DNA of 64,000 nucleotides, from assembly GCF_002855555.1 (NCBI RefSeq), contig NZ_PKRT01000001.1:2446001-2510000 (forward strand), in the 5' to 3' direction. The translations under genes and the position numbers were made by a program. This document shows positions 46,270 through 52,941 of the stretch, piece by piece (position 1 is the first letter of the stretch; the number at the start of each line of letters is the position of its first letter). The notes beneath the pieces were generated by a model. The model saw nothing but the letters and a program-made list of their open reading frames with translations, did no database searches and had not been told where the DNA came from. The stretch is from Novosphingobium sp. TH158. Its GTDB lineage: Bacteria; Pseudomonadota; Alphaproteobacteria; Sphingomonadales; Sphingomonadaceae.

Positions 46270-47322
46270 TCAGCTCGTCCGGATAACCTCGACGATGCGG
46301 TCGCCCTCGGCGATTACCGGGTTCTGCCAGAAGCCCAGCGTTTCTTCGCCGCGGACCAGCTTGATCGCGCGGCCGGTGGTGATCGCGTCGAGCGGTTTGC
46401 CGACCTCGCTGGCGCTGGCACGGCGCTCGTGGAGCAGCAGGCCGGCATCGGCGGAGGCAAGGTCGGCGAGCGTGTCCACCGCGTGCCGGTCTGCGGCGGC
46501 GCGGGCGAGCATGTGGCCGCCCATGCGGACCGGGTTGAGCACGATATTGGCCCCGGCCTGGGCGAGCAGGTCCTCGTTTTCCTCAAGCCGGGCCGTGGCG
46601 CTGATCTGCACGTCGGGATGGAGCTGGCGTGCGGAAAGGACGACCAGCGCGGTCGCATCGTCGCGGCTGGTGGAAACCAGCACGGCGCAGGCGGTTTCGA
46701 TGCGCGCTGCCTTCAGCACCGAATTCTGCGTGGCGTCGCCCTCGATCGCGCTGAAGCCTTCGGCGGTCGCGGCGGCAATGCGGGCCGGATCGGGATCGAC
46801 GACCACGATCTGTTCGGGACGGACCCCGCCTGCCACCAGTTCACGCGCGGCGAAGCTTCCGCCCGCGCCATAGCCGCAGATGATCGTATGGTCTTTCAGG
46901 GAGTTGCGGATCATGGCGGTGCGTATCCTGTCGATCGAATTGCGGAAGACGAAATCGTAGGCCGTGCCCAAGAAGATCAGCCAGACGAAGACCCGGATCG
47001 GCGTGACGACGAAGGATTCGAACAGCTTGGCCTGGTCGCTGATCGGCACGATATCGCCATAGCCCACCGTGGTGATGGTGATCGTGGTGAAATAGATGGC
47101 GTCGATGAAGCTGATGTGGCCGTCGATATTGTCCTTCAGGCCGTCGCGGTCGAACCAGTGGACGGCGAGTGCCATGCCCATCAGCGCCAGCACCAGCATC
47201 ACGCGCAGGCCCAGCGACTGCCACGGATCGAGCGTGGCGCGGCGGCGCAGGGGATGGAAGCGGTCGGCCCGCTTCAGGCCCTGGCTGCGATAGACGACGG
47301 GGGCGCGAAGACGCATGGCCAT
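46270..47322 (-). CDS. Potassium channel with RCK (TrkA-N/C) domain
   Basis: The ~350-residue protein has two transmembrane helices around the selectivity filter TTVGYGD, then a cytoplasmic RCK domain with the nucleotide-binding GYGAGGSFAARELV (GxGxxG type) and VVVDPDPARI, then a TrkA-C-like domain. It is a ligand- or NAD-gated K+ channel of Kch/MthK type. Start taken at 47322 or 47316 (MAMRLR); the longer frame to 47358 has no better site. Confidence 0.9.
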   Translation of the reverse strand: MAMRLRAPVVYRSQGLKRADRFHPLRRRATLDPWQSLGLRVMLVLALMGMALAVHWFDRDGLKDNIDGHISFIDAIYFTTITITTVGYGDIVPISDQAKLFESFVVTPIRVFVWLIFLGTAYDFVFRNSIDRIRTAMIRNSLKDHTIICGYGAGGSFAARELVAGGVRPEQIVVVDPDPARIAAATAEGFSAIEGDATQNSVLKAARIETACAVLVSTSRDDATALVVLSARQLHPDVQISATARLEENEDLLAQAGANIVLNPVRMGGHMLARAAADRHAVDTLADLASADAGLLLHERRASASEVGKPLDAITTGRAIKLVRGEETLGFWQNPVIAEGDRIVEVIRTS

Positions 47323-47438
47323 GTGATGCGCATTCCCGCACGAAAAGGCAACCGGCACTGCGGCTTGCCGAAAATCGTGGCGCGCGCGGCAAGGTGCGCT
47401 AAACTCTGCCCGTCGCCGGTCCGAGAAGGAGGGTACTG

Positions 47439-49881: not shown

Positions 49882-50463
49882 ATGAAACGCCTTGCCGTCT
49901 ATTGCGGGTCTGCCAGTCCCGCCGATCCGCGCTATATCGAACTCGCCGCAGAGGTTGGCCGCGGCCTTGCCGAACGCGGCATCGGGGTTGTTTATGGCGG
50001 CGGCCGGCTGGGCCTGATGGGCGCGGTTGCCACGGGGGCCTTGCAGGCCGGCGGCGAGGTGATCGGCGTGATCCCCGAAGCGCTGGTATCGTCAGAGGTC
50101 GCCAACCGCGAATGCACCGAACTGCACGTGGTGCCCGGCATGCACGAACGCAAGCTGGCCTTCACCGAGCTGTCCGACGGGTTCCTGACCATTCCCGGCG
50201 GCGTCGGCACCATGGACGAGCTGTGGGAGGCCGTTTCCTGGGCGCAGCTGGGCTATCATTCGAAGCCGGTCGGCGTGCTCAATGCCTTCGGGTTCTATGA
50301 CCAGCTGCTGGCCTTCAACCGCCACATGATCGAGGTGGGCTTCATCCGTCCCGCCCATGCCGGGATCATCATTGCCGAGCACGAACTGGACCTGCTGCTC
50401 ACCCGCATGGCCGCGCACGAGCCGCACACGCCGATCTTCGCCATGAAGGCGGACGATCTCTAG
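49882..50463 (+). CDS. LOG family (cytokinin-activating-like) phosphoribohydrolase
   Basis: The 193-residue Rossmann-like protein starts at ATG 49882 and has the two LOG motifs: PGGVGTMDELWE and, before it, GGGRLGLMG. LOG proteins release free base from nucleotide monophosphates. The stop codon overlaps the convergent channel gene's stop in the palindrome CTAG (50460-50463). Confidence 0.9.
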   Translation: MKRLAVYCGSASPADPRYIELAAEVGRGLAERGIGVVYGGGRLGLMGAVATGALQAGGEVIGVIPEALVSSEVANRECTELHVVPGMHERKLAFTELSDGFLTIPGGVGTMDELWEAVSWAQLGYHSKPVGVLNAFGFYDQLLAFNRHMIEVGFIRPAHAGIIIAEHELDLLLTRMAAHEPHTPIFAMKADDL

Positions 50464-50843
50464 GGCCTTGCGCCCCGGACCTGTTCCAGCCGTTCCAGTC
50501 GCTCGTCGATCCGCTTCAGGCTATCGAGGATCTGCACCTGCTCTTCATGGGTGAAGGCATCGCGATCCTCGTTGAGGCGGTCGACCAGCCGCACGACGAT
50601 CATCGGCGCGACGACGAAGATCGACAGGTGCATCAGCGCAACCGCCACGAACTGCCCCGCGCCGGTCTTGGGGCTGATATCGCCATAGCCGGTGGAGGTG
50701 GCGGTGGTCGCCGCCCAGTATAGCGCCGTGGTATAGTCCAGCCCTTCGAAGCGGGCGAGCAGGGCGGCGCTGACCAGCAGCAGCACGGCATAGATGATCG
50801 CCAGTTCGACGAAGGTATCGGTCGCAGCCCTCAGCTTCTTCAT
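50460..50843 (-). CDS. Small ion channel (Ion_trans_2), last gene of DUF350 operon
   Basis: The 127-residue protein has two transmembrane helices around the filter TSTGYGDISP and a C-terminal coiled coil (EEQVQILDSLKRIDERLERLE). It is a two-helix potassium-type channel without an RCK domain. It is 3 bp after the ATP-grasp gene, so cotranscribed with the DUF350-YgiB-ligase set. Confidence 0.9.
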   Translation of the reverse strand: MKKLRAATDTFVELAIIYAVLLLVSAALLARFEGLDYTTALYWAATTATSTGYGDISPKTGAGQFVAVALMHLSIFVVAPMIVVRLVDRLNEDRDAFTHEEQVQILDSLKRIDERLERLEQVRGARP

Positions 50844-50846
50844 GGC

Positions 50847-52004
50847 TCAGTCCTCGATGATGTGGGGGATGAAGCGCGATCGGTTGGCGGTGATCAGCCC
50901 GTCCTCGCGGATGCCCAGACCGGCCGCCTCGCCGCCGACGATCCACGCACCGAGCACCGGATAGGCCTTGCCCCCGACCGGGCCGAAATCGCGCAGCGGG
51001 TAGCGTTCCTGGTAGACCAGCCGCGCCCGGCTGTAATTGCCTTGCGAGCGTGCGACGACGCGCCCATCGGCGACCACTTCGACATTCGCCCCCTCGCGCG
51101 CCAGCACCGGCTTCGAGACATAGTCCTTGCCCGCCTTGTGGGCATCGAAAGTGGCGGGCAGCAGGTTGGGATGGCCGGGGAACATGTCCCACAGCACGGC
51201 CAGCACCGCCTTGTTGCTCCACATCATCTTCCACACCGGTTCGATCCACAGGGTGTCGGTGATGCGCGGCAGGATCTTCTCGCCGAAATCCTCCACCGCC
51301 ATCCATTCCCATGGATAGAGCTTGAACAGCGCGGTGATCAGGTAATCGTCCTGGTCGAGGATGCGCCCCTGCGCATCGATGCCGATCTGGTCAATCAGCA
51401 CGCCCTGCGTCTCGCAGCCGGCCTCCATGGCGATCTCGCGCATGTAGGTGGTGGTGATCGTGTCCTCGTGCGCCTCGTCGTCGACATGGGTGAACCAGGC
51501 CCGTCCGCCGGGCAGGCGGGGCAGGATCGTGCGCCAGCGCGCCACGAGCTTTTCGTGCAGGCTGTTCAGCTGGTCGCGCTGGGGAAAGCGGTCTTCCTTC
51601 CAGTCCCACTGGACGATGGCGGTTTCCAGCATGGAGGTGGGCGTATCGCAGTTGAACTCGAACAGCTTGGGCGGGCCGCTGCCGTTGTAGCCGAAATCGA
51701 AACGGCCATAGTCGAGCATGGGGTCCTGCCGCTGCCAGGCCTGGCGCACGGCATCGTGGTAGGCGGAGGGGATGCCGCAGAGCGAGAGCAGCCGTTCATC
51801 GCCCGCGATCTTATCGCCGGCCTGGCGGTAAAGCGACTGGACTTCCTCGGCCGCGGCCTCGATCGCCTCGATCTCCGCCAGGGTGAAGCTGTAGCAGGCG
51901 CTCTCGTCCCAATAGGCGCCGTCGGCATCGCTGTGCCAGATCAGCCCCTGTTCCTCGACCGCCGCCTGCCAGTTCTCGCGCGGCTGGACCGCAAGCCGCT
52001 TCAC
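50847..52004 (-). CDS. Glutathionylspermidine synthase-like ATP-grasp amidoligase
   Basis: The 385-residue protein belongs to the GSP-synthetase ATP-grasp family (YgiC/YjfC type). It contains LFEFNCDTPTSMLE, YPWEWM, LLPATFD and SKPVLAREGANVEVV, the segments that bind ATP and carboxylate substrate. It lacks the amidase domain of true E. coli Gss. It likely forms an amide bond between an unknown acid and an amine. The gene order DUF350, YgiB-like, this ligase copies E. coli yjfL-yjfM-yjfC. Confidence 0.9.
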   Translation of the reverse strand: MKRLAVQPRENWQAAVEEQGLIWHSDADGAYWDESACYSFTLAEIEAIEAAAEEVQSLYRQAGDKIAGDERLLSLCGIPSAYHDAVRQAWQRQDPMLDYGRFDFGYNGSGPPKLFEFNCDTPTSMLETAIVQWDWKEDRFPQRDQLNSLHEKLVARWRTILPRLPGGRAWFTHVDDEAHEDTITTTYMREIAMEAGCETQGVLIDQIGIDAQGRILDQDDYLITALFKLYPWEWMAVEDFGEKILPRITDTLWIEPVWKMMWSNKAVLAVLWDMFPGHPNLLPATFDAHKAGKDYVSKPVLAREGANVEVVADGRVVARSQGNYSRARLVYQERYPLRDFGPVGGKAYPVLGAWIVGGEAAGLGIREDGLITANRSRFIPHIIED

Positions 52005-52005
52005 G

Positions 52006-52404
52006 TCAGGAGCGGCCGCCGCCGAACGAGCGCGAGCTTGAGCCGAAGCCCCCGCGCGAGACCGCGGCCGAGCGGGTCAGGTTGGTGGCCGAAGGCGCGC
52101 TGGCGTAGGACTTGAACGGGTCTGCCGTGGCGCTGCCGACAAAGCGCTTGTCGCTGATCGAATCCCCGTAATAGGGCACCGGCGAGCGCCGGGCGATGTA
52201 GTACCAGCCGCCCGAATGGCCCGAGCGATAGGTGCTGCGGTTGTTGCAGCGCCAGTCCTCGATGCGCTGGCCGTTCTGGTCCACGCAGACGCGGGTGTCG
52301 TTATCGGCGATCACGTTGCCGTCCCAGTCATCGCCGGACGAGCAGCCCGCAAGCGACGAAAGCGTCGCCGCCATGGCCGAGGTGAGGACGAGTTGTTTCT
52401 TCAT
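52006..52404 (-). CDS. YgiB/YjfM (DUF1190)-like lipoprotein
   Basis: The 132-residue protein has a lipobox signal (LSSLAGC) and a small periplasmic domain with paired Cys (TRVCVDQ and DWRCNN). It ends in a Ser/Gly-rich tail (RGGFGSSSRSFGGGRS) typical of YgiB proteins. It is probably an outer-leaflet partner of the ATP-grasp ligase. The ligase ATG begins 1 bp after its stop. Confidence 0.85.
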   Translation of the reverse strand: MKKQLVLTSAMAATLSSLAGCSSGDDWDGNVIADNDTRVCVDQNGQRIEDWRCNNRSTYRSGHSGGWYYIARRSPVPYYGDSISDKRFVGSATADPFKSYASAPSATNLTRSAAVSRGGFGSSSRSFGGGRS

Positions 52405-52429
52405 GGGCTCTATCCTTCGTCAGGGCCGG

Positions 52430-52837
52430 TCAGGGCACCATGCAGGCGGCCTGCAGCACGCCTACGCCAAGCCCCATGCCGCCCACGAAGATGCCCGATG
52501 CGGTGCAACCTTCGGCAATGCGCTGCGAGATCGCCTTGAACAGGAAGCGCGCCACGATAACGAAGACCGCCAGCTGCACCAGCGCGGCCACCGCACCCCA
52601 CAGCAGCATGTCGGGGATGGAGACCGAATGGCCGATGACGATGGCCATGGGCACGGCAAAGCCCAGGAAGGTGCCGGTCAGCTGCGTGGCGGCAGCCGAA
52701 TTGCCATCGCGGATCAGGGCGAATTCGCGGTGCGGCGTGCAGAACGAATAGAGCGCCAGGAAAGCCGCTGCCAGCGCCACGGCCGAGCCGAAATAGGCCA
52801 GGAAGTGAGGCAGGGTCTGGGTGAAATAGTGCAGCAT
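52430..52837 (-). CDS. DUF350 family membrane protein (YjfL-like)
   Basis: The 135-residue protein has four transmembrane segments and the DUF350 pattern (AAATQLTGTFLGFAVPMAI, then GCTASGIFVGGMGLGVG). It opens the operon, 25 bp before the YgiB-like gene. DUF350 genes usually accompany GSP-synthetase-like ligases. Function unknown, probably a membrane platform for the modification system. Confidence 0.88.
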   Translation of the reverse strand: MLHYFTQTLPHFLAYFGSAVALAAAFLALYSFCTPHREFALIRDGNSAAATQLTGTFLGFAVPMAIVIGHSVSIPDMLLWGAVAALVQLAVFVIVARFLFKAISQRIAEGCTASGIFVGGMGLGVGVLQAACMVP

Positions 52838-52877
52838 CGATCTTCCCCCTTGCGGCGCTGTCCAGTGGCGCGGCCTT

Positions 52878-52893
52878 CAGCGTTTATACGCTG
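52878..52893. promoter_or_regulatory. Inverted repeat at DUF350 operon promoter
   Basis: CAGCGT-TTAT-ACGCTG is a 6-bp inverted repeat. On the minus strand it contains TATAAA, a plausible -10, 40 bp before the DUF350 start. Confidence 0.4.
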
Positions 52894-52941
52894 ACCATGC
52901 CACCGGGGCGGGCAAGTAGCAACCTGTTGTGGCAAAACGAT

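Follow-up and report, generated by a model that had tools for sequence, protein, structure and literature searches.

The window, the whole 64,000-nucleotide stretch of DNA analysed here, contains an operon of four minus-strand genes. According to the coordinates of their open reading frames, they run in the order DUF350 protein, lipoprotein, GSP_synth ligase and channel, with intergenic gaps of 25, 1 and 3 bp in gene order. The first gene (52430..52837, minus strand) encodes an inner-membrane protein of the DUF350 or YjfL type (UPF0719) with 135 residues, which matches Pfam PF03994 at positions 2–133 of 133 with an E value of 1.8e-33. The second gene (52006..52404, minus strand) encodes a small lipoprotein of 132 residues with the lipobox LAGC, two further conserved cysteines and the C-terminal tail SRGGFGSSSRSFGGGRS. 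The third gene (50847..52004, minus strand) has a GTG start and encodes an ATP-grasp ligase of the GSP_synth family and YgiC/YjfC type (peptide–polyamine ligase), which is 385 residues long and matches Pfam PF03738 with an E value of 3.1e-137. The last gene (50460..50843, minus strand) encodes a minimal potassium channel of 127 residues with two transmembrane helices (2-TM), the filter TSTGYGD and no RCK domain (Pfam PF07885, Ion_trans_2, E value 5.1e-13). The four gene families and their tight packing had been described in a first-pass annotation of this DNA; the open reading frames are found where it placed them, and three of the families are confirmed by Pfam.

An MFS gene lies upstream of the operon on the same strand. 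It is separated from the operon by 104 bp (52838..52941, minus strand; open reading frame coordinates), the putative promoter region, and a promoter within this gap is likely. A sequence scan found no sigma-70-like site in the gap, and a scan for promoters and terminators gave nothing exceeding chance. On the downstream side, a LOG-type gene on the opposite strand overlaps the last bases of the channel gene.

Relationship to known envelope modules

YjfL/YjfM/YjfC (YgiB/YgiC) is a known envelope module, and the window operon is a compact form of it from Sphingomonadaceae. Kinship to yjfL-yjfM-yjfC and ygiB-ygiC of E. coli had been proposed from the start and is borne out by the ligase, which shows 40% identity to YjfC, and by the DUF350 protein, which shows 42% identity to YjfL. 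In the E. coli operon yjfI-yjfJ-yjfK-yjfL-yjfM-yjfC, the genes for the DUF350 protein, the lipoprotein and the ligase follow each other in the same order and on the same strand as in the window, and an SRGG(F/Y)G tail is shared. The window operon differs from it in the lack of DUF2170, PspA and DUF2491, in a lipoprotein that is not recognised by the DUF1190 model and in the channel gene that follows. The E. coli ygiB-ygiC pair is similar in that the lipoprotein gene is directly followed by that of a peptide–spermidine ligase and in the RGGFG tail of YgiB, but neither DUF350 nor a channel is seen there. Of the earlier statement that DUF350 belongs to both E. coli sets, one half stands: it is present beside yjfM-yjfC, while none adjoins ygiB-ygiC on the side viewed. 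The DUF350 homologues in 12 relatives show 67–83% identity and share an invariant LQAACMVP end. The AF2 model of the window DUF350 protein is poor, with a pLDDT of 62.

A larger, classic form of the operon was recovered repeatedly. It contains DUF2170, PspA, a channel of about 350 residues with Ion_trans_2 and TrkA_N, DUF2491, DUF350, DUF1190 and the ligase, laid out as a single run or as two divergent halves. The two-halved layout is found in many alphaproteobacteria (L018, L045, L046, L047, L135 and L177), where the ligase is on the DUF2170–PspA side and DUF1190, DUF350, DUF2491 and the channel are on the other.

A 2024 study groups the same ligase with a potassium channel, DUF350 and DUF1190 and includes PspA-less variants; its PSP group 3 comprises CesT/Tir-PspA, a potassium channel, DUF350, DUF1190, DUF2491 and the ATP-grasp ligase (PMC11237479). 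The window operon resembles this group in combining a potassium channel, DUF350, a lipoprotein and the ligase in one operon, for which PspA-less variants are described. However, the group 3 channel has about 350 residues with TrkA_N/RCK, whereas the window channel has 127 residues, lacks RCK and, judged by similarity, belongs to another branch. Group 3 is characterized by the PspA-CesT/Tir dyad or its replacement genes, along with DUF2491, and by an RCK-type channel, and the window operon has none of these. The dyad, its described replacement genes and DUF2491 are all absent from the operon neighbourhood. PspA is also missing nearby, as the first-pass annotation had said; the sole PspA of the genome is about 1.45 Mb distant. 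Since the classic operon with a channel and PspA-less variants are known, neither the channel link nor the PspA absence is new in kind. The idea of an undescribed system has to be given up, as the module with channel and PspA-less variants is already in PMC11237479. The same applies to the channel as a new addition, for an RCK-type channel is already part of the classic operon and occurs in about 21 of the sampled neighbourhoods. New are the RCK-less channel with its apparently separate origin, its conserved linkage, its dispensability and the shared RGGFG tail.

Linkage and origin of the channel

KcsA is the best PDB match of the window channel, both by sequence and by fold, and the AF2 model of the channel has a pLDDT of 83. 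Two transmembrane helices and a (T/S)xGYG potassium filter are present, as in KcsA-type channels, which it also resembles in length and in the pore helix and the cytoplasmic helix. It differs from these channels in the filter, which is TSTGYGD and not of the TTVGYGD type, in the conserved DRDAFTHEEQ and in the constant position behind the ligase. An alignment of the operon-linked homologues shows both the filter TSTGYGD and DRDAFTHEEQ, which forms a conserved cytoplasmic helix. The channel is predicted to conduct potassium selectively; its filter has STGYG rather than TVGYG.

Among 196 congeneric genomes, the ligase is found in 33 and the window-type channel in 6, each time directly behind the ligase. 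When 84,980 species genomes were scanned, 12 close channel homologues were obtained (62–79% identity) from Novosphingobium, Sphingomonas and other Sphingomonadales, all of them in the four-gene order; five of these 12 genomes are the same as in the congeneric set. One further homologue with 56% identity has the same gene order. With the window included, this amounts to 14 distinct loci whose channels are at least 56% identical to that of the window. The identical four-gene order is present at 14/14 of these loci, each in a distinct genome, and chance adjacency of the four genes is ruled out by this linkage. Channel homologues with about 41% identity or less, which come from other Sphingomonadaceae and from actinobacteria, are unlinked to the ligase. 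Their filters are of the TVGYGD or TIGYGD type, with one TTGYGD.

In the ligase tree, the window ligase is located inside a clade of 26 members with a support of 100/100, and the channel is present in 13 of them and absent in the other 13. Deeper relatives have the lipoprotein and the ligase only, with no channel. No channel remnants were found in the loci of the channel-less relatives. One gain of the channel near the base of the clade together with several losses is the simplest reading, obtained with a tree method that is blind to gain versus loss. As half of the clade lacks the channel and shows no remnant of it, the core reaction can proceed without it; the channel is a frequent but dispensable last gene of the module. 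The first-pass annotation had made its case depend on the conservation of the channel beside this gene set. This holds for the close channel homologues, all of which are linked, and does not hold for the 13 channel-less operons of the ligase clade.

The channel might also be a passenger in a strong operon with no functional tie to the ligase, which would agree with its absence in half of the closest operons and in every deeper one. We consider it improbable, because the close homologues stand directly behind the ligase without exception across Novosphingobium and Sphingomonas, and because a different channel, of the RCK type, joined the classic operon (PMC11237479).

Pfam detects no TrkA_N/RCK domain in the window channel. 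The RCK channels found in the classic operon resemble it only weakly (at best 40% over 84 residues), and standalone small channels align with it over most of its length, including the C-terminal helix. On these grounds a truncated RCK channel of the classic operon was rejected, and the window channel looks as if it had been recruited independently. Since a channel of 127 residues without RCK differs from the classic RCK channel of about 350 residues, a channel has probably joined the cassette twice. The entry of two different potassium channels into one cassette would suggest that its job involves potassium flow or membrane potential.

A second potassium channel gene is found in the window at 46270..47358 (minus strand), 3.1 kb downstream of the operon and with genes between. 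Its product has 362 residues with Ion_trans_2 and TrkA_N and shows no close similarity to the RCK channels found in the classic operon. As a candidate for the displaced RCK channel of the operon it was rejected: with a profile built without this protein it scored 74 bits, while the operon channels exceeded 400.

The ligase and the lipoprotein tail

The window ligase spans positions 1–371 of 371 of the GSP_synth model and has no amidase domain according to Pfam. The nearest solved structures are those of E. coli YgiC (7uk8) and YjfC (7uk6). The window ligase retains all 53 residues that are shared by at least 97% of 139 homologues. In RefSeq, the products of E. coli ygiC and yjfC are named peptide–spermidine ligase, and a later paper cites Pederick et al. 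2023 (pmid 36745518) for this activity. The homology to YgiC and YjfC agrees with the initial proposal that the ligase would act on a peptide or polyamine, and it supports ATP-dependent bond formation between a peptide carboxylate and an amine as the likely chemistry. No AdoMet decarboxylase was found in the source genome, so the polyamine would come by another route; three genes of the PLP-decarboxylase fold are present in this genome. Among the other GSP_synth genes, one of the bifunctional type (L364, G537) has an internal TAG stop and is probably a pseudogene.

The window lipoprotein has no match in Pfam, and it stays below the cut-off of PF06693 (DUF1190), as does a relative. No DUF1190 match was found anywhere in the source genome. 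Aligned by hhalign with the DUF1190 profile, the lipoprotein gives a probability of 97.8% at 22% identity, and the best-aligned parts are the signal peptide and the tail. Compared with E. coli YjfM, similarity rises above noise only in the tail, VSRGG(F/Y)GxSS. The near-C-terminal tail in E. coli reads RGGYG in YjfM and RGGFG in YgiB. Judged by position and tail, the window lipoprotein probably works like a DUF1190 protein, and it may belong to that family.

The exact RGGFG motif is found in the last 60 residues of 64 of the 91 DUF1190-type and 21 of the 35 window-type ligase-adjacent lipoproteins, and a looser form in 82/91 and 31/35, respectively. Shuffled tails give 0.2% for the exact and 6.3% for the looser form; the counts are not independent, since many of the lipoproteins are related. 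At bifunctional or divergent GSP_synth ligases, an RGGFG-tailed neighbour was found at none of 16 loci. DUF1190 seldom occurs outside ligase carriers: of the 44 DUF1190-bearing genomes of the class sample, 41 have a ligase. In the remaining three, which have no detected ligase, the motif is absent in L350 and L352 and present in L351; the sample is tiny, the L351 contig stops where the ligase would be and L352 is possibly misread. As the tail is missing near the 16 other GSP_synth ligases and from two ligase-less DUF1190 genes, it tracks the YgiC/YjfC-type ligase. From these sequence comparisons, the RGGFG tail of the lipoprotein (approximately 52010..52060, minus strand) is the best candidate for a substrate or docking site of the ligase.

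Gly/Ser-rich low-complexity tails can also serve in assembly. The RGGFG tail could accordingly be a non-catalytic signal for envelope localisation or interaction, with ligase and lipoprotein sharing a pathway without contact. The DUF1190 protein of L351, which keeps its motif with no ligase in view up to the contig end, would fit such a signal, and the two ligase-less proteins that lack the motif, L350 and the possibly misread L352, argue against it within this small sample. We regard a pure localisation signal as unlikely.

Nine ligase-adjacent proteins that match neither the DUF1190 nor the window-type profile (L121, L131, L152, L163, L164, L166, L182, L187 and L189) still have an RGGFG or RSGFG tail, which often ends in GG. 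In the congeneric set, L237, L246, L251 and L252 contain a different, divergently oriented DUF1190–ligase pair, and the tail motif is degenerate or interrupted there.

Proposed function of the module

With a probability of roughly one half, we favour a compact form of the known module that acquired its channel separately, in which the ligase partners the lipoprotein via its tail and the channel adjusts the membrane potential. The cytoplasmic ATP-grasp ligase would activate the C-terminal carboxylate of a peptide with ATP and join it to a polyamine, like its E. coli homologues. The co-encoded lipoprotein would be the natural protein partner of the ligase via the RGGFG tail, either as the modified chain or as a docking site. 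The ligase has no signal peptide, while the lipoprotein is exported. Because the enzyme and the mature lipoprotein are on opposite sides of the membrane, a modification would have to precede export, and this location is the main difficulty of the substrate view. The C-termini of the window-type lipoproteins, mostly RS or GE and not GG, also count against the proposed mechanism.

The opposite location would be no obstacle to a ligase that makes a small soluble conjugate of a polyamine with a short peptide or a glutathione-like thiol, with the lipoprotein, DUF350 and the channel as co-regulated envelope-stress tools only. The GSP_synth relatives, which include glutathionylspermidine and trypanothione synthetases, point in this direction, and although E. 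coli YgiC is reported to lack glutathionylspermidine synthase activity, another small peptide could be used. However, no other partner of the ligase is as constant as the lipoprotein, whose most conserved part is the tail. With the tail absent near the bifunctional or divergent ligases and DUF1190 rare without a ligase, we find a soluble product rather doubtful.

In the favoured module with ligase and lipoprotein as partners, the DUF350 protein in the inner membrane may be a scaffold or a partner in translocation. The channel would let potassium flow and adjust the membrane potential once the module is switched on. As it lacks a ligand-binding domain, its gating may depend on a partner, on voltage or on free polyamine reaching the pore. 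The module as a whole might serve in a stress response. A more specific version would be that YgiC/YjfC-type ligases polyaminate the RGGFG C-terminus of the lipoprotein and that, in Sphingomonadaceae, the tail or free polyamine also acts on the channel. This version seems improbable to us. If true, polyamination would create a positively charged, membrane-anchored protein tail; no description of C-terminal protein polyamination by a ligase was found in the searchable literature.

The main interest of the operon is mostly the tail motif. The literature searched gave no natural substrate for ligases of the YgiC/YjfC type, which are widespread, and the near-universal RGGFG tail on the neighbouring lipoprotein is a direct and testable substrate candidate, which is applicable to E. 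coli too. In addition, the four-gene PspA-less form offers a simple version for testing the function of the module.
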